Below are positions 1 to 10,712 of a stretch of DNA of 33,701 bases, piece by piece; positions within the stretch are counted from its first letter, which is position 1, and the number at the start of each line of letters is the position of its first letter. The translations under genes and the position numbers were made by a program. The stretch lies in contig CAIOJL010000167.1 of assembly GCA_903858595.1 (NCBI GenBank), forward strand, positions 1 through 33,701. The letters are read 5' to 3'. The notes under the pieces are model-generated. The model was not told the origin of the DNA. It was given only the letters and a program-made list of their open reading frames with translations, and did not search any database. Source of the stretch: an uncultured Spartobacteria bacterium (GTDB taxonomy: Bacteria > Verrucomicrobiota > Verrucomicrobiia > Chthoniobacterales > UBA6821).

Positions 1-232
1 CTCTCGTTCCATCAAAAAGCACTGGAACGGGGTGGTGGCCTTCATGAGGACAAGGCTTACCAATGGGGCCATGGAGGCCATCAATGGACTGCTCCAACTA
101 GCAAAGAGGCTAGCCAGGGGGTTCCGTTCCCTACGCCACTTTCGCATCATGGCCTATCTCAAAGCTGGCAAGCTTCAGCTCGAACTGCCATCCTTCAGAC
201 CGTTACCCATCCACTCAAAATAGCGAGGAACC
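1..232 (+). mobile_element. ISL3-family insertion sequence, right end
   Basis: The window opens inside an insertion sequence. The transposase C-terminus ends at 223, and the sequence CCACTCAAAATAGCGAGGAACC (211-232) has the form expected of an ISL3-family terminal inverted repeat, in which the transposase stop codon lies inside the repeat. I place the element boundary at 232, so the bases at 233-240 (ACTTTTTC) would be one copy of the 8-bp target duplication typical of this family. The left end lies outside the window, so neither the matching inverted repeat nor the second target copy can be checked. The element is inserted in a gene read on the opposite strand. Confidence 0.7.
2..223 (+). 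CDS. ISL3-family transposase, C-terminal part (5' truncated by window edge)
   Basis: The frame is open from base 2 to a TAG at 221-223 and continues upstream out of the window. The visible stretch carries the conserved C-terminal block of the ISL3 DDE transposases: RLTNGAMEAINGLLQLAKR followed by ARGFRSLRHFRIMAYLKAG. In this family the block holds the last acidic catalytic residue (the E of NGAMEAIN) and the helical tail after it. The protein catalyses cut-and-paste movement of the element through its terminal inverted repeats. Only about 73 residues of an expected 400 or so are visible, so I cannot say whether the full gene is intact. A GTG at 32 is an internal codon, not the start. Confidence 0.75.
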   Translation, partial: SRSIKKHWNGVVAFMRTRLTNGAMEAINGLLQLAKRLARGFRSLRHFRIMAYLKAGKLQLELPSFRPLPIHSK

Positions 233-399
233 ACTTTTTCAATGGTCACCCACGGCGATGCGATCACGGTGCCTTTTCCTGCGTCATCGCCCTTTGGGCT
301 GATAAAATAGTCTGCGGCGCATAGCCGACTGCTCAGTGATGCGCTCAGAGCTGCCGTGGTGAGCAGCCCCAGGATTGATTTTATGAGATGGTCTTTCAT
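233..399 (-). pseudogene. Secreted beta-helix-type protein, N-terminal remnant cut by the ISL3 element
   Basis: Reading leftwards from an ATG at 397-399, the product starts MKDHLIKSILGLLTTAALSA, a typical signal peptide with a short positive start, a hydrophobic core and likely cleavage after LCAA. The mature start is ADYFISPKGDDAGKGT then SPWVTIEKV. The pattern (A)DYFVSPxGxDxxxGT...PxxTIxKA is the usual beginning of secreted right-handed parallel beta-helix proteins, often polysaccharide lyases or surface proteins. After IEKV the frame runs into the end of the insertion sequence and soon stops. The remainder of the gene should lie on the other side of the element, outside the window. A next in-frame ATG at 423 would add eight residues but gives a poorer signal peptide. 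Confidence 0.62.
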
Positions 400-490
400 G
401 AGCAATACGATGGTGATGTGCATTTATTGTTGGTTCTCTTCGGTTGTTGTCTCGTGTGACGTTCCCCCAGGACGCTCCTGTCGCTTGTAG

Positions 491-517
491 ATGATGGTCG
501 GGTTCGCCAACCATCAT
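491..517. other. Intergenic stem-loop between the beta-helix remnant and the GH36 gene
   Basis: ATGATGGT at 491-498 pairs with ACCATCAT at 510-517, and GG/CC can stack inside, leaving a five-base loop. There is no T tract on either side, so it is not a standard intrinsic terminator. It lies between the stop of the GH36 gene at 584 and the start of the truncated gene at 399, both on the minus strand, and could be a transcript-end structure or an operator. The rest of 400-583 shows nothing else. Confidence 0.35.
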
Positions 518-583
518 GGATGGGATCACGAAATAATGGTATGTATGCTTTAGCCGTAGTCATCACTGCCTTCTTTATTAAAC

Positions 584-3115
584 TTACTCTTTGTCCACCT
601 TCCGCCGGTAGAAGAGCAACCGGCTCTCCGGCGCGGTTTCTAGGATCAGGCGCACACCACGCTCGCGGAGTTCCTGGCCGGACTGTTGCCAGGTGCGGCC
701 TGTTTCGGCGTCCTCGAACTCGTATTTCGTATCGAAATCCAAGCCATGGAGGCGGAAGTCGGCACTGACAAAGTGCGATTCCGGGCGCCGGAGCGCAAGC
801 ACAAACCCTTCCCCGATATCCGGCCGGTGCATCTGGTAGGCTGCCCATTGATCATGCTCGGGCCGGCAGGACGACAGGGGATAGTAGTCGCCGTAGAACA
901 GCGGACGGGCACGGCGGGCCTCGGCCAGCATGCGCCGGTGCCAGTCGTAGGGATAATCCGGGCGGAGCGGCGTACCCTCAGAGGGCGCCAGGTGGAAACA
1001 GAGCGCCGCGGAGAGCGAACTGCGGAAATTGTAGGTGTCGCCTGGACGCACTCCAGTGCCGCAGGCGGAGAGCGGCAGCCAGTAATTCAGCCCCATTCCC
1101 TCAACCTGGCAGCCGACCGGATCGAAGTGTGGACCACACTGCCAGTCACTGCGCCAGAGAGGGATGCTGCGGCTGCAGGTTTCGAGATCGAGGCGTCGGC
1201 CGCCGCTGGCGCAGTTGTCGATGATGAGTCCCGGATGGCGCCGCAGGAGCTCATCCCAGAACGCATAGAGCCCTTCAATATGGCGGATCTCACTCATCCC
1301 CTGCCGGTCAGTCGCGTCGGCTGCTCGCCAGTAGGGGAGAGGATCGACGTTGAAATCCTGACGATAGAGGTGCACTCCTTGTGTCGTCAGGCAATCGGAG
1401 ATGAAATCAATCAGCCAGCGCCGGGCCGTGAGGTTGCCGAGATCCAGTAGCAGGCTGGCGCCCGGCTTACGCTCGCCCAGGAACCACTCCGGATGCTCGA
1501 TTGGCAGCGGCGTGCCGACCACGGCGCGCTCCGGCTCGAACCAGAGTAGCAGTTTCGTCCCGGCAGCAATGGCCGCGTCGCTGATCGGACGGAACCCCTG
1601 CGGATACCCCACCGGGTTGATGCGCCAGTCACCGACATGCTTGGCCCATTCGCCGGTGGACTCCTCCGGCGAAAAACTCTCCGGCGGACCGTACCAGCCG
1701 GCGTCGATCCAGTAATACTCGTTGTCGATCCCATGCTGCCGGTACGCCTCAATGCGCTCAAGGTGCTCGGAGGTGCGCATGCCGCCCCAATGTCCCGTCG
1801 TCAACGGTCCGCGCAGGAGTTCGCCATCCGGCCGCGGCGTGTGGTGTGCGAGGATGAATCGTCTCAGCGTGTTGTGACTGGTCTGCGGGGCGCCATTCCA
1901 AAAGAGCTGCATGATCCGCGGCGTGCGGATCTCCTCGCCGGGATGCAGCACCAGGTGCGTCAGTTCCTGACCGGCCCTGATACGGAGCTCGCCGCCCGCA
2001 GTGCCGCGCGTCAAACTGGCGGCCCATTGCCCCGTCCATCCGATACCGGTGATGACACCGGAGTCGCCTGACTGGAGGTTGAAGAACGGTAACCAGTTGT
2101 TTGAGGAACGCCCGCCGCCTGCGGCCATCGAGATCGTCTCACCCTCGGCCAGCGGCGTGACCAGGTATTCGAAGTCCGCCACCGAGGACTGCGAACCGCG
2201 GGAGCGCCGGAGCTGGGTCTCGCCGGTCACGGCCCACACGGTGTCCAGCGGTTGGATATTTTCCAGCAGCGGCGTGTCCATTGTGCCCGTATTGCGGAAG
2301 CGCAGTAGCCATTCCGCCGCCGGAAAGCCTTCGAAGGTCTGGAGCTCGAGTTCGCATTCGAGGCCAGTCTGGGGGTCGTGCCAGATTACCAGTTGTCCGG
2401 TGACACCATCCGCGCAGGGCTTGGAGCTGCGCGTCACACGCCAGCCGGTGAGAAGTTCTGCGGAGGCACGCCCGCCGAACGTGAAGGAAAATGGGGGAGT
2501 ATCGTAGGGAAGCGGCTGCGCGGCATAGGCACAATCGATCGGGCTCACCGTGGTGCCATCGGCCAGCTCAAGTTCGACATCCGCCCAGTCGGCATGTGCA
2601 TAGCCACTGTCGCTGTTCACATCCCACACTTTCAACGTCACTTCGGTGCCCCCGGGGACTGGCGTGTCGATCCGCACCGCTGGGGTATCCACGCCGAGGG
2701 CGGGACTCCGCCAGAGTTCGCGGCCCCCCCCCGCCTCGACGGCGAAAATCAATCGCTCGGAACCGCCAGCATTGCCCCCGCGGCAGACAATACTGCCATC
2801 CATGCCGGCCCAGGCACGGAACCGGCGGATCGGCTGGTTGGCATGCAGGACGATCTCGCTATCGGCATGCGTGCCGAAGCCGTGGGTGAACGTTTTACCG
2901 CCGATGACGATGGGCTGATCGAGGATCGAGCGGTTGAACCGCATCACTCCCCAACCCTGCTTCTGGCACACCGCCCGCAGCACGTGTTCATCGCCCGGCA
3001 GTCCGACGGCAGCAGCCGCCCATTGCCCGGCGTATTTCAGCGCCTCTGCGATTCCGGCAGGGCGCAAGTCGAGTGGTTTTGGAAACGGGGGGGGGTCTTC
3101 GCTTTTTGAGATCAT
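584..3115 (-). CDS. GH36 alpha-galactosidase with N-terminal NPCBM domain
   Basis: The 843-residue product is a retaining alpha-galactosidase-type hydrolase. Residues about 65-190 form an NPCBM domain (GGKTFTHGFGTHADSEIVL, later WADVELELADG), a sugar-binding module. The GH36 beta-sandwich occupies about 200-430 and the TIM barrel follows. Barrel motifs include EYYWIDAGWY, LLLWFEPERAV, YRQDFNVDP with the likely nucleophile D587, IDNCASGGRR, and LWRSDW with the likely acid/base D657. No signal peptide is seen, so it should act in the cytoplasm on imported galactosides. It is the last gene of the hydrolase operon. I chose the ATG at 3115; a TTG at 3178 overlaps the GH38 stop as TTGA, but its extra 21 residues are encoded by a TTGG-rich repeat and match no domain. 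Confidence 0.88.
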   Translation of the reverse strand: MISKSEDPPPFPKPLDLRPAGIAEALKYAGQWAAAAVGLPGDEHVLRAVCQKQGWGVMRFNRSILDQPIVIGGKTFTHGFGTHADSEIVLHANQPIRRFRAWAGMDGSIVCRGGNAGGSERLIFAVEAGGGRELWRSPALGVDTPAVRIDTPVPGGTEVTLKVWDVNSDSGYAHADWADVELELADGTTVSPIDCAYAAQPLPYDTPPFSFTFGGRASAELLTGWRVTRSSKPCADGVTGQLVIWHDPQTGLECELELQTFEGFPAAEWLLRFRNTGTMDTPLLENIQPLDTVWAVTGETQLRRSRGSQSSVADFEYLVTPLAEGETISMAAGGGRSSNNWLPFFNLQSGDSGVITGIGWTGQWAASLTRGTAGGELRIRAGQELTHLVLHPGEEIRTPRIMQLFWNGAPQTSHNTLRRFILAHHTPRPDGELLRGPLTTGHWGGMRTSEHLERIEAYRQHGIDNEYYWIDAGWYGPPESFSPEESTGEWAKHVGDWRINPVGYPQGFRPISDAAIAAGTKLLLWFEPERAVVGTPLPIEHPEWFLGERKPGASLLLDLGNLTARRWLIDFISDCLTTQGVHLYRQDFNVDPLPYWRAADATDRQGMSEIRHIEGLYAFWDELLRRHPGLIIDNCASGGRRLDLETCSRSIPLWRSDWQCGPHFDPVGCQVEGMGLNYWLPLSACGTGVRPGDTYNFRSSLSAALCFHLAPSEGTPLRPDYPYDWHRRMLAEARRARPLFYGDYYPLSSCRPEHDQWAAYQMHRPDIGEGFVLALRRPESHFVSADFRLHGLDFDTKYEFEDAETGRTWQQSGQELRERGVRLILETAPESRLLFYRRKVDKE

Positions 3116-3126
3116 GGTTTTAGCAG

Positions 3127-3152
3127 GTTGGTTGGTTGGAAGAGTTGGAAAA
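3127..3152. repeat. TTGG-rich spacer repeat between GH38 and GH36
   Basis: The short gap holds GGTTGGTTGGTTGGAAGAG followed by TTGGAAAAGG. The same kind of wording (TTGGAAGTTGG) recurs inside mutL at 23028-23070, so it looks like a copy of a dispersed low-complexity repeat. It supports starting the GH36 protein after this stretch. Confidence 0.4.
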
Positions 3153-3174
3153 GGGTGCCCAGCGATCGTTCGAA

Positions 3175-6100
3175 TCAAGGATTACCCCGTTCCCTTGATA
3201 TGCGGAGACTCGCGATCTGGTAGGGGCGGAAGTCGATTGTCGATCCGCTCTTCCCGATGAGAGCGCCGGAGAGATCGACCGGGGTCGCCTTCCAGCCTTC
3301 GGCCAGAAGGATGAGGCAGGAGCCTGACCTTCCGAGCGTCTCGTGGAGCCGCAGCGTCCAGGAGTCCTTGCCCCCGGGCACTACCCAGGCCGGCTGAAGC
3401 GACTCACCCCCTTCGAGGCCGAGGAATCCGCAATCCGCCGGACCTCCGGAGTATTCCAGCACGGGGGTGAAGAGCGTCTCCGCGAGAGCGGCGGGCTGCT
3501 CCTCGCGGGGAGCGGCGGGATCGAAGCGACCGATGGCGATCCGGATCCGGTGCTCTCCGATGTCGCTGCAGACATTCGGGGCAAGCGTGCGGCGGATCGG
3601 CTCGGGATGGGTGCCACGCTGGTGGCCGCGGTCCTCGTTTGTGATCTTGGCGCTGCGGATCAGACTCGGCGCGAGCACCCCGTCGCGGCAGGAAAATCCA
3701 TACTTGTCCTCCGTCACCACGAAGAACCCCTCACTCTCCGAGTCATCGCTCACCACGGCCCAGCGGCTCGCGGGAACCTCCCACATCGCTTCGGCCTGCG
3801 TGTCACCGCCGAGTTGCGGGCGCCGGACACTCCCGTAGGGAATGGCGAAACGAGCGTGACGCCCCATGAATGCTGTTGGGAAGGCGGTTTTGAGCAGCGC
3901 ATTCTCCTCCTTCCAGTCGAGATCATAGTCGATGCGGAGCACCGGACTTCCGGCCTCGAGGATGTAATGGACGGAGACCTTGCCGCTCTTGCCCAAGGGA
4001 CGCTCGAAGACAACCTCCGCGCGGAGAGGATCCTTGGCGGAGACGCGGACCGTGGCCTTTCGGTGATTCTCCTTGCCGAGCGAGAGCGCCTGGCGGTCGA
4101 TATCCCAGGCCTCGAAGGTGGTCGGGAATTCCGGGTAAATCATGAAAGCGTTCGCGGCTCCGGTGAACGGCAGCGCCTTGTTATCGACGGAGAGGCGCGT
4201 AATTCGGCCTGCGGTGTCGAAGCGCACATCGACTCGTCCGTTCCCCATCCGGGTCGCGGAGGCGGTGACCTTCCCGGTCTCCATTGCGGGGAATGTCTCA
4301 ACAGGAGCGCCGGCAAGAGGGGGGAGCAGGAGGCATTTCCCGGCATGCCGGTGGAGGCGCGGCTGCGGAAGGGGGTTGAAGAGCGAGATCCCCACCGCCT
4401 TCTTTCCCTTCCCCCCGAGCACCTTCGCGGAGGAATCGAGGGCCGATTTGGCGATGCCGAGCAGTTCCGGCTTGGCCTCGGCATAGACCTCGTGGATCGA
4501 ACTGCCGGGGATGTAGTCGTGGAACTGGGCGAAGACAACCCGCTTCCAGGCAGCCTGGCCGATCGAGCCGCCGCCGGTGACGCAGGCTACAGCCTCGCGC
4601 ACCTGGAGAGCGCGCTCAGCGGCGCGCATGGCTGCCTTGATCTCCCCATGCGTGGTGTAGGTGCCCCGATGGTACTCGAAATAGAGCTCCCCTCTGTAGA
4701 TCGGAAGCTTGTCACGCAGGCCCCCGAGGCGATCGAAGAAGCCCGAGAGACTGCCCCATTGAGCGGGCGGGACCCCCTGGATATCGGCGACACGTCGGGC
4801 CCTCTCGCACATCTCCTCGGTGACGCCGCCGCCGCCGTCGCCGAAACCGGTCGGCGCGAGAAACTCGGGATGAACATCGCATTGTTTGTGGTTGGCAGCC
4901 CCGCTGCGCAGCTCACCGACAAAGACATTCTGGTTGTATCCTCCTCCCGGAATCCCCTGATTGGATCCGGAACAGTTCACCAGGTAGGAAACCACCTCGC
5001 TCCCGTCGATTCCCACCCAGCGGAAACTGGTGAAGGGGAAGGGAGTGATGGCGTTCCAGGCAAGCTTGGTAGTGAAGAAATAATCGACCCCCGTCTCCTT
5101 CATCATCTGGGGAAGACAGCCGGAGTAGCCGAACACATCGGGAAGCCAGAGAATCGGCGACGGTTTTCCGGAGAGCCCCCGGAATCCCTCCTGACCGATC
5201 AGGAAACTGCGCGCCAGGGCCTCCCCGCAGGCGAGCAGCGTGTCGCTCTCGACATAGGTGGCGCCGTGAGCCTCCCAGCTTCCCTGTTTGATGCGCTTCT
5301 TCACCACTCCGGAGAGAGCGGGGGAAATCCGCTCCACGGCCTCGTAGCTGGCGGGCTGGGAATAAGCGAAACGCATCTCAGGATAGCGCTCGAAGAGGCG
5401 GTTCATCGTGGCAAAGGTGTGCACCGCCTTGCGATCCCCGACCCTCTCCGGCCAGAGCCAGACGAGGTCGATGTGGGCGTGGCCGTTGAGGATCCCCCTG
5501 GGAGTCGCCGCGTTGCCCTTCAGGTCGGCGAAGGCCGCTTTCAGGACCTTTTTGGCATCGGCGAGTCCCCCGCCGTCCAAGGCATTGATCGCATTGTCGA
5601 GATGGCGCAGCAGGCGGCGCAGGAGGGGAGGGAGGATTGAGAGCTGAGGCTTCACCCCGATGGGGCCGAAATTCACCTCCTGCGCTGGGAAAGCGGCACG
5701 GATCTCCTGCCACATTAGGTCCTCTAGGACTAGCATGTCATGCAGGACTTCCCAGGCCAGATCGTTCCGGGTGAGCAGCTCGGCCCCCTTCAGAAGACTT
5801 CCCTCGGGACTCAGACCGTCGGAGTGTGGGTGCCAGATGGCTGTGCGGCAGACGATCGATTCCACCCAGACCTCGCGGGTTCCCCTCCCTGTTTCCTTAC
5901 CCGTTGCCTTGCCCAAACTCTTGGGAAGCGGGGCGATCCGGTGTGGATCGTCGAATCCGTAATAAGGGACCCCGTCGACATAGAGCGTCGATTCAGCCTC
6001 GTCCTCCCAGCGCAGATAGGTCTCTCCCCGGTGTTCCGGTAGACGGAGTCGGTACCAACGCTGATCCCAGAGCTTACCATAATGTTGGGGCAGTTTCCCA

Positions 6101-6276
6101 ATCGGCTTCAGGACCGATTTTCTAGCCGCCTCCCATTCGATGTAGGCGGGCGAGGGGGCCGTGGCCGAGATGTCGGTAACTGTGGAAACGCTTGCCCAGA
6201 CTTGCGAGCGGATGCGGGCAACCGCCTGGGGAAGACGGGCTGGAACAAGTTGAAGGAACGGATTGGCGGGATCCAT
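3175..6276 (-). CDS. GH38 alpha-mannosidase
   Basis: The 1033-residue product is a zinc-dependent retaining alpha-mannosidase. The catalytic domain carries GHAHIDLVWLWP (zinc ligands H268 and D270), LWLPDVFGYSG with nucleophile and zinc ligand D380, and QFHDYIPGSS with zinc ligand H586. The N-terminal 250 residues form the usual lead domain (YLRWEDEAESTLYVDGVPYYG), and the C-terminal 400 residues are the beta-sandwich domains of the family. Length is normal for bacterial GH38. No signal peptide is present. It releases mannose from alpha-mannosides such as N-glycan or mannan fragments. The ATG at 6276 has one of the few clear ribosome binding sites in the window (GAAGGA, six bases before the start). 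It lies 18 bases after the preceding gene, so it is co-transcribed with it. Confidence 0.92.
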   Translation of the reverse strand: MDPANPFLQLVPARLPQAVARIRSQVWASVSTVTDISATAPSPAYIEWEAARKSVLKPIGKLPQHYGKLWDQRWYRLRLPEHRGETYLRWEDEAESTLYVDGVPYYGFDDPHRIAPLPKSLGKATGKETGRGTREVWVESIVCRTAIWHPHSDGLSPEGSLLKGAELLTRNDLAWEVLHDMLVLEDLMWQEIRAAFPAQEVNFGPIGVKPQLSILPPLLRRLLRHLDNAINALDGGGLADAKKVLKAAFADLKGNAATPRGILNGHAHIDLVWLWPERVGDRKAVHTFATMNRLFERYPEMRFAYSQPASYEAVERISPALSGVVKKRIKQGSWEAHGATYVESDTLLACGEALARSFLIGQEGFRGLSGKPSPILWLPDVFGYSGCLPQMMKETGVDYFFTTKLAWNAITPFPFTSFRWVGIDGSEVVSYLVNCSGSNQGIPGGGYNQNVFVGELRSGAANHKQCDVHPEFLAPTGFGDGGGGVTEEMCERARRVADIQGVPPAQWGSLSGFFDRLGGLRDKLPIYRGELYFEYHRGTYTTHGEIKAAMRAAERALQVREAVACVTGGGSIGQAAWKRVVFAQFHDYIPGSSIHEVYAEAKPELLGIAKSALDSSAKVLGGKGKKAVGISLFNPLPQPRLHRHAGKCLLLPPLAGAPVETFPAMETGKVTASATRMGNGRVDVRFDTAGRITRLSVDNKALPFTGAANAFMIYPEFPTTFEAWDIDRQALSLGKENHRKATVRVSAKDPLRAEVVFERPLGKSGKVSVHYILEAGSPVLRIDYDLDWKEENALLKTAFPTAFMGRHARFAIPYGSVRRPQLGGDTQAEAMWEVPASRWAVVSDDSESEGFFVVTEDKYGFSCRDGVLAPSLIRSAKITNEDRGHQRGTHPEPIRRTLAPNVCSDIGEHRIRIAIGRFDPAAPREEQPAALAETLFTPVLEYSGGPADCGFLGLEGGESLQPAWVVPGGKDSWTLRLHETLGRSGSCLILLAEGWKATPVDLSGALIGKSGSTIDFRPYQIASLRISRERGNP

Positions 6277-6294
6277 GGTATGTCCTTCAGCGGT

Positions 6295-8325
6295 TCACCC
6301 GAGTGTGAGCGGAAGGTGTTCGGCTTTAAGCGTGTAGGTGTGCTGCGGCAGGAGGGTATGGGAGTCGGCGGGGGGCAGTTCCTTCCCGAGGGTCACGTCG
6401 AAGAGGGTTCCCGGCAAGCGCGCCTCCTGCGTGTCGAAGCTCCAGATCACGGCCGTATTGTTCTCATCGTTGTGCCAGATGATGCACTTGCCGTTTTTCT
6501 GCAGGTAGCGCGTTTTCATCAGCGGGAGAACCTCGTGGTAATCGGCCAGGACGCGCTTGTGCTCGGGAGTCCAGATCTCATCGGCCCGCTTCCCCTCTTT
6601 GTGGAGCGGCAGGCTCACATCGGTCTTGTGCGCGAGGATATAGTGGACGTACTCGTAGGCATCGGCGCGCAGATCCTCGTGGAGGGACAGGGCGGTGGGG
6701 ACGGTCGTGTAGTTATTGCCAACCCCGATCTCGAAGCAGACCCAGCAACGGTCGATGCTGTAGGAGCTCGGACACCCGTGCTGAACCCGTCCAAACGGCC
6801 CGAAGGACTCGATCAGGAAGTGCACGTCGGCCTCCTGCAGCTCCTTGAAGGCCGAGAGAAGCTGGCGCCACATCGTGCTGGGCCTGCCGTTGGTGTAATT
6901 CACCGGCATGAAGCCGAGGTTGTAAAAGCTGTCGAAGAGATAGCCGTTGAGTCCGGTGTTTTCGCGGTTTTTCTTGAGCGAATCGATCCAGAGGCGGCGA
7001 GGCTCCTCGTTGGCGAAATCAAAGATGCTGAAGACGTTCGTGTACGCCCCGCCGTATTTCGTGCGAGTGTCCTCCGACTTCACATACCAGTTGCGCGCGT
7101 CACGTTCTGATGCGTTGAGCGGACTCGAGTAGGCCTGGTCATTGTTCGTCCAGCTCATGACCTGGATGCCGAGAGAGGAGGCCCGGTCGACGAGTTCCTT
7201 GAGCTTGGGGATGCCGCCAAGGGAGGGGGCCGGTTCGTACTCGTGGCCGCAGCACATATTGCCGATACCCCCCTCGGTCATGGCGCTCTTGTTCACGTTG
7301 TCGATGAAGACCTGCTTGAATCCCAGGGCCGCGGCCGCGGGAATGAGGTCCTTGAGATAGCTTTCGAAGTTGAAATTGACCCAGAGATTCTGGCCCAGAC
7401 GCGGGATCACCGGCTCCTTCCGCAAGCCGAACTCCGCGCGGGCCCGTTCGTGGACCTCGTCGATGGTCCAGGTCCAGAGGTTCTGCATCTCCGTCTCGTC
7501 GGTGATCCCCCCGGCCAGAAGGATCTTTTTCGGAACAGTCGAGAATCTCCGCGCCTGGTCGAAGATGTGCTTGTCGAATGTCTTGAGTTCCGCGGCACCC
7601 TTCTCGCGCCGCAGAAGGCTGCGGATGAGATCCACCCGCTCGAAGACCCCGAGGAGCACCCTCCCGTTCTTCCATTGGAAGTCGAAGGCCTGATGACTCG
7701 CCCAGCGGGGAAGGTTGTGGGTCATCACCGGATTCGGCATTGTGGGATCCCAGTGGATAAGACCCTCGGTGGTCCAGGCGGTCTCCTCCCCGATCGTCAC
7801 CAGGGGATCCGAACAGGAGCTTTGCGAGACGACCGTGGCACCGCGGATATCGCCGTCGAGTTCCCAACTCGACTTCTCCAGCAGATGGAAGAGCTCGACC
7901 GTCCCCCCGCGGTATTCGTAATGGTAGGCGAAACCGGAGGCCACGACATTGTTGAAGGAATCAGCCGTGGGTTTAAAAACGATGTCGAGTTCGCCGTCAG
8001 CCACGGGCTCCGTCGCATCCCAATCCCCCGACTCATGGATCGGGTCGAAGGAGTGATCGCGCATCAGCTTCGTCTCCGCAGTAGAGAAGAGCGTTTGCAG
8101 GCGGACGCGGAGCTCGCCGGCCGACTCCTCCGCGCCGAGGAACCCGAGACCGCGCAGCTCCTTGCCTCCGAAACTTGTCGAGCGGATCGTCAGGGGGAGG
8201 CGGCCGGAACGGACCAGCGTCTCGCCGATCCAGATCCTTCCAATGCCCGCGAAGGTGTTGCCGGAGAGAAGGAGTTCGATGCGGGTGTCGCCGAGCGGGT
8301 GCAAGGAGGACGTTATGGGTGTCAT
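6295..8325 (-). CDS. Uncharacterised glycoside hydrolase-like TIM-barrel protein
   Basis: I do not recognise this 676-residue protein as a named family. It is laid out like clan GH-D/GH31-type enzymes: about 300 residues that look beta-rich (FNNVVASGFAYHYEYRGGTV, FDFQWKNGRVLLGVFERV), then a barrel beginning GQNLWVNFNF. Barrel strands can be followed in LGFKQVFIDNV, LGIQVMSWTNNDQAY, LNGYLFDSFYNLGF, VHFLIESFGPFG and RCWVCFEIGVG. By position D465 (GYLFDSF) would be the nucleophile and E506 (LIESFG) or a later acid the proton donor. That assignment is inference. The tail resembles the C-terminal beta domain of GH36. No signal peptide is present. It sits between GH31 and GH38 in the operon, so a role on the same oligosaccharide is likely. 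The start lies just after a doubled 9-mer GGGTCCGTT (8326-8343), with no ribosome binding site. Confidence 0.65.
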   Translation of the reverse strand: MTPITSSLHPLGDTRIELLLSGNTFAGIGRIWIGETLVRSGRLPLTIRSTSFGGKELRGLGFLGAEESAGELRVRLQTLFSTAETKLMRDHSFDPIHESGDWDATEPVADGELDIVFKPTADSFNNVVASGFAYHYEYRGGTVELFHLLEKSSWELDGDIRGATVVSQSSCSDPLVTIGEETAWTTEGLIHWDPTMPNPVMTHNLPRWASHQAFDFQWKNGRVLLGVFERVDLIRSLLRREKGAAELKTFDKHIFDQARRFSTVPKKILLAGGITDETEMQNLWTWTIDEVHERARAEFGLRKEPVIPRLGQNLWVNFNFESYLKDLIPAAAALGFKQVFIDNVNKSAMTEGGIGNMCCGHEYEPAPSLGGIPKLKELVDRASSLGIQVMSWTNNDQAYSSPLNASERDARNWYVKSEDTRTKYGGAYTNVFSIFDFANEEPRRLWIDSLKKNRENTGLNGYLFDSFYNLGFMPVNYTNGRPSTMWRQLLSAFKELQEADVHFLIESFGPFGRVQHGCPSSYSIDRCWVCFEIGVGNNYTTVPTALSLHEDLRADAYEYVHYILAHKTDVSLPLHKEGKRADEIWTPEHKRVLADYHEVLPLMKTRYLQKNGKCIIWHNDENNTAVIWSFDTQEARLPGTLFDVTLGKELPPADSHTLLPQHTYTLKAEHLPLTLG

Positions 8326-8372
8326 GGGTCCGTTGGGTCCGTTGGCTTGGCTTGTGATGTTGGAGGCGGGTG

Positions 8373-10712
8373 TTACTCGGCAGAACGGTCGAGCTGGATC
8401 GGATCGGTGATCTCAGGCGAGGCCCACCGTGCGCGGATCTCCAGATCAGGCCCCGTGTAGCCAAGTCGGTGCACGCCATTCTCGAACGAGTAGCGGAGCG
8501 CCCCGGACTTCCCGTTGACATCGAGCGGCAGTTCGGTGACACCCCCATCGCGGCGATGCGGGGTCATCACCACGTCGAGCTGGCGGATAGGCTTCTCGCC
8601 GACATGGCTCATCGGCTCCTGCATCGGGACAAGCGCCCCCTCGCGAAGGTAGAGAGGAATGGTCGCGAGCGGCGAGACTGTCGTGATCCAGCGCTCTCCC
8701 TGCTCCACAGCGCCCGTCCACCAGCAGGTCCATTCCCCGGCAGGGAGATAGAAACTCCGCGCGCCGTCGGCCGTGAAGACCGGGACCACCAGGAGACTCT
8801 CTCCGAAGAGGTACTGGTCGTAGAGAGGCCAGGTCGTCGGATCCTCTTGGAAATCGATGACCAGAGGCCGCGCCATCGGTAGCGATTCGGCGGCCGACTT
8901 GAGGGCGCTTCCTAGGACATAAGGCATCATCGCGTAGCGCAGGCGGATGATGTCGCGGCAGTGACGGAGAGCCTCCGGGGAGAACTTGTAGAGCTCCCGG
9001 TCGCCGAAGCCGTGAATACGGGAATGCGACAGGAACATGCCGAACTGCATCCAGCGGATCAGCAGCAGGTCGTCCGTGGTGCCGCAGAATCCCCCGATAT
9101 CCTGGCTCCAGAACGTGAAGCCGCTCAGGCCCAGCGAAAGACCGCCAGCAAGCTGCGGGATGATATTGTGGAAGTTCGGACTATTGTCCCCGCCCCAGTG
9201 GAGGGGATATCGTTGACTTCCGGCCCAGGCCGAACGGGCCCAGACAGCCCCCTCGCCCGTCGTCGATTCCGTGATCTCGAAGGCGGCCTTGTTGTAGAGA
9301 AGCGGGTAGAGATTGTGCATCCGCGAGCCCGGAGTTCCATCATAATAGACGCCGTCCGACGGGGCGAACTCGCCGAAATCGGTCTTGATAACGCTCGCCC
9401 CAGCCTCGAGCAGGCCACGGACCCTTGCCTGGAAGACCTCGACCGCCCGGGGATTGGTGAAGTCGATGACACCCACGACTCCCTTGAATCCCGGCGTGAA
9501 GCAGGTTTTGGAGTCGTAGATCTCGCCGTCGGCAGTTTTCACGAAGCCCTCCACCGCCTTGAGTTCCTCGAAGTAAGAGGATCCCTCCGGGATGTAGGGA
9601 AGCTGCCAGAGCGAGACACGGATTCCCATGTCACGCAGCTCGCGCATGAATGCGGCGGGATCGGGGAAGCGCTCCCTGTCGAATTCCAGATCGCAGTACC
9701 AGTCCTCCTTGAACCAATGGGTATCAAGATGCACCACATCGCAGGGAACATCGTTCTCCCGCATCTTGCGCATGACATCGATGACCTCTTCCGCCGACTT
9801 GTAGCTGATCTTGCTCTGCCAGTAGCCGAAGGTCCACGGCGGAGGGACCGCGGGACGGCCCGTCAGTCCCGTGTAGCATACCAGCACCTCCTTGATGCTG
9901 CCCGCGATGAAATAGTAATCGAGGAAAGGATCGTCCACCGCCACCTGGATGTCCGCGGCGCTGCGGCTGCCGACCCAGAACGTCATGCGGCTCGAGTGGT
10001 TAAAGTAGATCCCGTATCCGGCCGTGGTCACGTAGAAGGGAATATTCTTATAGCTCCGGGGAGTCATCACCCCGATGGCGTCGTCGGTGTCGAGCTCGAT
10101 GGTCTGGCCGGTCTTGTCGAGCTTCAGGAACTTTTCCCCGAACCCGTACACCGCTTCCCTCGGCCGCAGCGAGAAATTCTCGGTGGCGACGCGCTGGCTT
10201 CCGTTGTGAAGCAACCCGGCGTTGAGCGAGTCCCAGTTTACGAAATTATTCTTCTCCCCTCCCCCCACCTCGGTGAGGAGACGTCCGGCCGGGTCGGTCG
10301 CCACCATGCGGAACGGCGAGGTTTCGACCGTCCAGGAGAGCCGGAAGGTCGTGATCGTGACCTTCTCGCCGCTGACCGAGATTTCGGGATCGGCACCCAG
10401 TTCCAGCTCCACCTGCAGCATCGGCGTCAGGTTCTCGGGCACAGCGTCCCCCTCCGCATAGCGGACACGGATCACGGAAGCCGAGACGACATCCAGCCGA
10501 AGCTCCCCTTCGATCGGTTTCTCGAAGGTCGCCCGCTCCTTGAGCGCCGCCATCTCGGGGTCGGCCGAAGAGATCGTCCCCTTGAAGCGCAGCGAAGCGA
10601 AGGTGCGGAAACGGACGAATCGGGGTCCCTGTTCCACAAGCTCGACCTTGTCGATGCTGGTGCGGAGGCCGCTGTACTCTTCGAGAATGAGGGTGGGATT
10701 TTTGGATGGCAT
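8373..10712 (-). CDS. yicI: GH31 alpha-xylosidase (YicI type)
   Basis: The 779-residue product is a retaining alpha-glycosidase of family GH31. The N-terminal beta-sandwich ends near PPWTFGYWQSKISY, and the barrel has VVHLDTHWFKEDWYCDLEFD, VIKTDFGEFAP with nucleophile D445, and YPLHWGGDN with acid/base D509. KTDFGE and HWGGD are the signatures of the Escherichia coli YicI alpha-xylosidase group, and the 64-residue spacing of the two aspartates matches it. Expected substrates are isoprimeverose or xyloglucan fragments, with xylose released. No signal peptide is seen. It is the first gene of the four-gene hydrolase operon; 47 bases separate it from the next gene. The promoter should lie in 10713-11239. 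Alpha-glucosidase activity is the main alternative. Confidence 0.88.
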   Translation of the reverse strand: MPSKNPTLILEEYSGLRTSIDKVELVEQGPRFVRFRTFASLRFKGTISSADPEMAALKERATFEKPIEGELRLDVVSASVIRVRYAEGDAVPENLTPMLQVELELGADPEISVSGEKVTITTFRLSWTVETSPFRMVATDPAGRLLTEVGGGEKNNFVNWDSLNAGLLHNGSQRVATENFSLRPREAVYGFGEKFLKLDKTGQTIELDTDDAIGVMTPRSYKNIPFYVTTAGYGIYFNHSSRMTFWVGSRSAADIQVAVDDPFLDYYFIAGSIKEVLVCYTGLTGRPAVPPPWTFGYWQSKISYKSAEEVIDVMRKMRENDVPCDVVHLDTHWFKEDWYCDLEFDRERFPDPAAFMRELRDMGIRVSLWQLPYIPEGSSYFEELKAVEGFVKTADGEIYDSKTCFTPGFKGVVGVIDFTNPRAVEVFQARVRGLLEAGASVIKTDFGEFAPSDGVYYDGTPGSRMHNLYPLLYNKAAFEITESTTGEGAVWARSAWAGSQRYPLHWGGDNSPNFHNIIPQLAGGLSLGLSGFTFWSQDIGGFCGTTDDLLLIRWMQFGMFLSHSRIHGFGDRELYKFSPEALRHCRDIIRLRYAMMPYVLGSALKSAAESLPMARPLVIDFQEDPTTWPLYDQYLFGESLLVVPVFTADGARSFYLPAGEWTCWWTGAVEQGERWITTVSPLATIPLYLREGALVPMQEPMSHVGEKPIRQLDVVMTPHRRDGGVTELPLDVNGKSGALRYSFENGVHRLGYTGPDLEIRARWASPEITDPIQLDRSAE

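Follow-up and report, generated by a model that had tools for sequence, protein, structure and literature searches.

Organization of the Gene Cassette

The window, that is, the whole analyzed stretch of 33,701 nucleotides from an uncultured Spartobacteria bacterium, carries a four-gene cassette on the minus strand, in which the genes follow in the order GH31, P0001, GH38, and NPCBM-GH36-like with gaps of 47, 18, and approximately 0 bases. The first gene (8373..10712) encodes a YicI-like GH31 alpha-glycosidase (Pfam GH31, E 1e-85; PDB matches 5f7c and YicI); the second (6295..8325), a candidate glycoside hydrolase of 676 amino acids, here called P0001; the third (3175..6276), an Ams1-like GH38 alpha-mannosidase (Pfam GH38N, E 4e-62; PDB match Ams1); and the fourth (584..3178), a GH36-like glycosidase with an NPCBM domain (NPCBM, E 1e-24; Melibiase, E 4e-20; PDB match AgaA), whose start codon, TTG at 3178, is uncertain. 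A C-terminal remnant of an ISL3-type transposase (2..220, plus strand; PF01610, E 2.3e-12) lies next to the cassette, where the contig ends. No signal peptide is obvious by eye in any of the four cassette proteins, P0001 included.

An earlier, sequence-only reading of this DNA had placed a 676-residue ORF at exactly these coordinates, at 18 bases from GH38 (start at 6276) and 47 bases from GH31 (stop at 8373). Both the ORF and the spacings are borne out by the gene coordinates, and the strand, absent from that reading, is minus. A plus-strand reading of 6295-8325 was rejected: a stop interrupts the frame, and the ORFs antisense to the gene are a by-product of high GC on the coding strand. The name alpha-xylosidase, previously given to the GH31 neighbor, is not established, since the protein scores 541 bits against a cut-off of 606 and its best PDB match is named alpha-glucosidase.

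Distribution of the Family

No Pfam cut-off is reached by P0001, the only matches being the sub-threshold ones to GH31 (E 0.0012, residues 373-465) and DUF5696 (E 0.13). Searches of NCBIfam and PHROGs gave no match, phmmer against PDB sequences gave nothing significant, and the viral contigs and plasmids searched contained no relatives. Within its own phylum, relatives were found in 17 of 387 other sampled genomes; strong full-length members occur in 8 of 246 Planctomycetota genomes. Eight close loci, at 48-55% identity, come from named MAGs of Planctomycetota, Lentisphaerae, and Verrucomicrobia. The family alignment and tree comprise 46 distinct members from Verrucomicrobiota (including Lentisphaerae) and Planctomycetota, and P0001 belongs to a clade of 11 rows (support 100/100) in which Planctomycetota, Lentisphaerota, and Verrucomicrobiota occur together. 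Two genomes, G407 and G408, have 7-8 near full-length copies each; this paralogous expansion covers loci L109, L115, L120, L124, L127, L117, L121, L125, and L128, with a tandem pair at G407:C565.

The proposal that P0001 may define an unclassified glycosidase family agrees with these data: the family has 46 aligned members, and P0001 shows no match above cut-off to an existing family in Pfam or NCBIfam. A strong hit to an existing GH family, named earlier as evidence against the proposal, did not appear in NCBIfam or in Pfam, the GH31 and DUF5696 scores in the latter staying sub-threshold. P0001 is thus placed, by sequence comparison, as a probable member of an unclassified family, the word "unclassified" being judged by Pfam and NCBIfam.

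Predicted Structure and Candidate Catalytic Residues

The AF2 model of P0001, made with 10 sequences, is of moderate confidence (pTM 0.78, pLDDT 69.8) and consists of an N-terminal beta-sandwich (residues ~1-272), a (beta/alpha)8 barrel (~305-600), and a C-terminal beta-domain (~605-667). Foldseek matched GH36, GH31, and DagB at E-values from 7e-16 to 8e-13, and the highest TM score among the 50 matches listed was that of the GH129 enzyme NagBb (0.53/0.57). The model and the matches together support the TIM-barrel layout akin to GH31 and GH36 that had been suggested from the letters. Of the folds put forward earlier for comparison, GH36 and GH31 were matched, whereas GH114 is not among the 50 matches listed.

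Only three of the 88 Asp and Glu residues of P0001 are near-invariant in the family. D465 (codon 6931..6933, minus strand), the proposed nucleophile, is conserved in 46 of 46 members; E506 (codon 6808..6810, minus strand), the proposed general acid/base, is Glu in 45 and Asp in one; and E155 (codon 7861..7863, minus strand), conserved in 45 of 46, belongs to a (T/S)WE motif of the N-terminal beta-sandwich, outside the barrel. In the model, D465 and E506 end consecutive barrel strands 4 (461-465) and 5 (502-506), and pLDDT falls below 50 directly after them, at 466-475 and 507-552.

The choice of D465 and E506 as candidate catalytic residues had been made before the family was assembled, and their conservation favors it. 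The peptides LNGYLFDSF and VHFLIESFG, which hold D465 and E506, respectively, are present in the translation and stand at barrel-strand ends in the model, as had been claimed; KxDxN, KTDFGE, and WxSD had correctly been read as absent. C-terminal to E506, no acidic column reaches even 60% among the 46 members, which leaves the family without the strand-6 acid/base that GH31 and GH36 have.

Profile Comparisons

The family profile retrieved from PDB sequences GH13 alpha-amylases (E 1.7e-9), GH36 (1.5e-6), and GH31 (1.1e-5). Comparison of the 46-row alignment with other profiles by hhalign gave P-values of 3.5e-9 for DUF5696, 1.4e-6 for GH31, 3.2e-6 for GH13 GlgE, and 3.3e-4 for GH36; the values for GH101 (0.02) and GH129 (0.19) were not significant. 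GH38 and the seven unrelated control proteins all had P of at least 0.1; the seven include aldo-keto reductase, URO-D, and other GHs, and several are TIM barrels. Taken with the retention of D465 in all 46 homologs and of E506 in 45, the gap between the controls and DUF5696 puts the observation beyond chance.

In GH13, the Asp/Glu pair serves as nucleophile and acid/base, and the corresponding Asp of GH31 is the nucleophile. In the profile alignments, D465 pairs with the Asp of GH13 GlgE (RVDNPH), GH31 (KTDFGE), GH101, GH129, and DUF5696, and E506 pairs with the Glu of GH13 (FLSEAF), GH101, GH129, and DUF5696, with no GH31 carboxylate opposite. Weak alone, the alignments to GH129 and GH101 are of value in that they meet the same residue pair. 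The tie between DUF5696 and GH129 is firm (profile-profile P 7e-39), and it is through DUF5696, itself uncharacterized, that the link of the P0001 family to GH101 and GH129 runs. Judged from these alignments, the D465/E506 pair seems to be of the GH13/GH101/GH129 kind (beta4 Asp and beta5 Glu) and not of the GH31/GH36 kind.

The features of individual families are present in P0001 only in part. A conserved Asp followed by a conserved Glu on consecutive barrel strands, as in GH101 and GH129, is found across the 46 members and in the AF2 model; in Pfam, P0001 has no match to GH101 (PF12905) and none to GH129 (PF11308) at E <= 10. Of the GH13 triad, the strand-4 Asp and strand-5 Glu align, a conserved counterpart of the strand-7 Asp is lacking, and there is no alpha-amylase Pfam match. 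For GH31, the strand-4 Asp is present without a second conserved acid after E506, and P0001 scores 18.7 bits against the Pfam barrel cut-off of 23.5; of three other members, one scores 17.6 and two have no match. GH36 is represented neither by KxDxN nor by a Melibiase match in P0001. A GH97 Pfam match was seen in only 1 of 22 members (E 0.0036), and GH114/GH191 gave no Pfam match for P0001 and is not among the 50 Foldseek matches listed.

Genomic Context and Possible Substrate

The cassette (window positions 1-10712) has a GC content of 0.60-0.64, compared with approximately 0.56-0.58 in the adjoining stretch. In 18 other genomes of the same taxonomic family, its GH31 and GH38 genes lack comparably similar counterparts; three of these genomes were also searched with P0001, and it is missing from them. 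The higher GC, the ISL3 remnant, and the absence from relatives make the cassette look horizontally acquired.

Elsewhere, the family is found beside other glycan genes. The member at locus L031 neighbors heparinase II/III-like, PL14-like, and GDSL genes; that at L035 has GFO/IDH/MocA nearby and a GH38 N-domain about 9 kb away; and regulators of the GntR/LacI type lie near the members at L031 and L158. GH2 genes stand near some relatives and, by eye, GH29-like and GH127-like genes near others. The set of GH31, GH38, and GH36 does not recur beside close homologs, the GH38 N-domain at L035 being the single exception. This context supports a role in carbohydrate catabolism and does not support a shared specific substrate. 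The shared oligosaccharide substrate proposed earlier from gene spacing is therefore not sustained: it rests only on apparent co-transcription in one genome, with partners that are not conserved and a cassette that looks horizontally acquired. Deducing the substrate from the operon partners is weak for the same reason; as a default guess from the GH31, GH38, and GH36-like neighbors, the substrate of P0001 might be a hetero-oligosaccharide taken up by the cell, from which it would remove an alpha-linked residue.

Several other neighbors of family members were observed. A 101-aa ORF resembling, by eye, the GH38 N-terminus lies close upstream of a member (L036:8475-8780, minus strand); it has no Pfam match and is possibly a truncated gene. 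An apparently secreted protein of ~1190 aa, with N-termini similar by eye, is encoded at most two genes from a member in three genomes (L042:10449-14030, L044:3502-7068, and L045:12019-15600). Large neighbors of 1000-1150 aa without a Pfam match (L037:1868-5125, L036:12942-16400, and L041:5174-8179) are possibly further unclassified carbohydrate-active proteins.

Discussion

The data described above make it quite probable that P0001 belongs to an unclassified family of retaining alpha-glycoside hydrolases and acts in the cytoplasm, probably in the exo mode. The ORF, its family, the conserved pair, the predicted fold, and the profile relation to GH13, GH31, and DUF5696 are direct results; catalysis, retention, alpha stereochemistry, and exo action are inferred, as is, from the lack of an obvious signal peptide by eye, the location in the cytoplasm. 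In the proposed mechanism, D465, which closes barrel strand 4, would attack the anomeric carbon to form a covalent glycosyl-enzyme, and E506, which closes strand 5, would first protonate the leaving group and afterwards activate water. Most likely, to go by alignments and the model, P0001 combines a scaffold of the GH31/GH36/GH129 type with a beta4-Asp/beta5-Glu pair of the GH13 type. Somewhat less certain, although still favored, is the broader view of a new GH family, with a GH31-like scaffold and a GH13-type pair, that would join GH31/GH36 to the GH13 and DUF5696/GH129/GH101 lineages, act on an alpha-linkage so far unassigned, and be expanded in some Lentisphaerae/Verrucomicrobia and present in Planctomycetota.

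It seems unlikely that P0001 belongs to a recent, already assigned CAZy family for which no Pfam or NCBIfam model or solved structure exists, since the papers found on recent families concern others: GH191 is GH114-like (PMC12054363), GH192-194 are beta-1,2-glucanases (PMC12102758), and GH195 is GH99-like (PMC13063451). GH114/GH191, GH192-194, and GH195 themselves are ruled out as the family of P0001 by their other relations. To a similar, small degree we would credit a divergent branch of DUF5696/GH129/GH101 that acts on residues of the alpha-GalNAc or anhydrogalactose type. In its favor, the nearest profile is DUF5696, which aligns at both catalytic positions and is tied to GH129, and NagBb has the best TM score among the Foldseek matches listed; however, direct comparison with GH129 and GH101 is not significant, a PF11308 search of genome G000 was empty, and DagB is a case where the fold alone settles neither family nor catalytic residues (PMC5698469).

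Still less probable is a divergent GH31 or GH36 enzyme (clan GH-D), with D465 as the nucleophile and a strand-6 carboxylate as acid/base. The sub-threshold Pfam GH31 match at 373-465, the GH31 profile with D465 on its nucleophile, and the top Foldseek matches to GH36 and GH31 all point that way, but the scores lie below the Pfam cut-offs, E506 is without a GH31 counterpart, and no acid after it is conserved in the 46 members. A non-hydrolytic relative (a transglycosidase, a phosphorolytic enzyme, or a catalytically dead sugar-binding protein) is comparably improbable: GH13 and GH31 do include transglycosidases and the genomic context alone is compatible, yet a dead protein would hardly keep the pair so strictly in 46 diverse members, and the exo-glycosidase setting suits hydrolysis.

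Pfam and NCBIfam have no model for a family that two genomes carry in 7-8 near full-length copies each, so glycan breakdown in Verrucomicrobiota (including Lentisphaerae) and Planctomycetota appears to be under-annotated. With a candidate catalytic pair named, the family becomes testable by two point mutants. Moreover, its profile ties together GH13, GH31, and the DUF5696/GH129 group, and thus bears on the divergence of retaining alpha-glycosidases.

Among known systems, the GH36 alpha-galactosidase AgaA has the best Foldseek E-value to P0001 among the matches listed (7e-16), although identity is 11%, KxDxN is absent from P0001, and D465 lies off the GH36 nucleophile. The GH31 alpha-glucosidases and alpha-xylosidases have the same succession of N-sandwich, barrel, and C-sandwich and align their nucleophile with D465 (profile P 1e-6 to 1e-8), whereas the conserved strand-6 acid/base is missing from the P0001 family, and P0001 itself lacks KTDFGE and WxSD and scores below the Pfam cut-off. 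In GH13 (GlgE and alpha-amylases), nucleophile Asp and acid/base Glu align with D465 and E506, but the N- and C-terminal domains are unlike those of P0001, and the third conserved GH13 Asp is absent from its family. DUF5696 (PF18952), uncharacterized and GH129-related, aligns over 574 columns with its Asp/Glu on D465/E506; by the Pfam rule, P0001 as a single sequence is not a member (11.2 bits against 25.6). The catalytic domains of GH129 and GH101 are similar, and the GH101 barrel is GH13-like (PMC8106489). Finally, the GH129 alpha-N-acetylgalactosaminidase NagBb (5wzn), in which Asp435 is one of two catalytic residues (PMC5698469), and the GH129-like DagB (5opq) have a domain layout in common with P0001, at 10-11% identity in structural alignment. 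For DagB, a new family was proposed on the grounds of 16% identity and catalytic residues that are not conserved (PMC5698469), an argument of the same kind as the one made here for the P0001 family.
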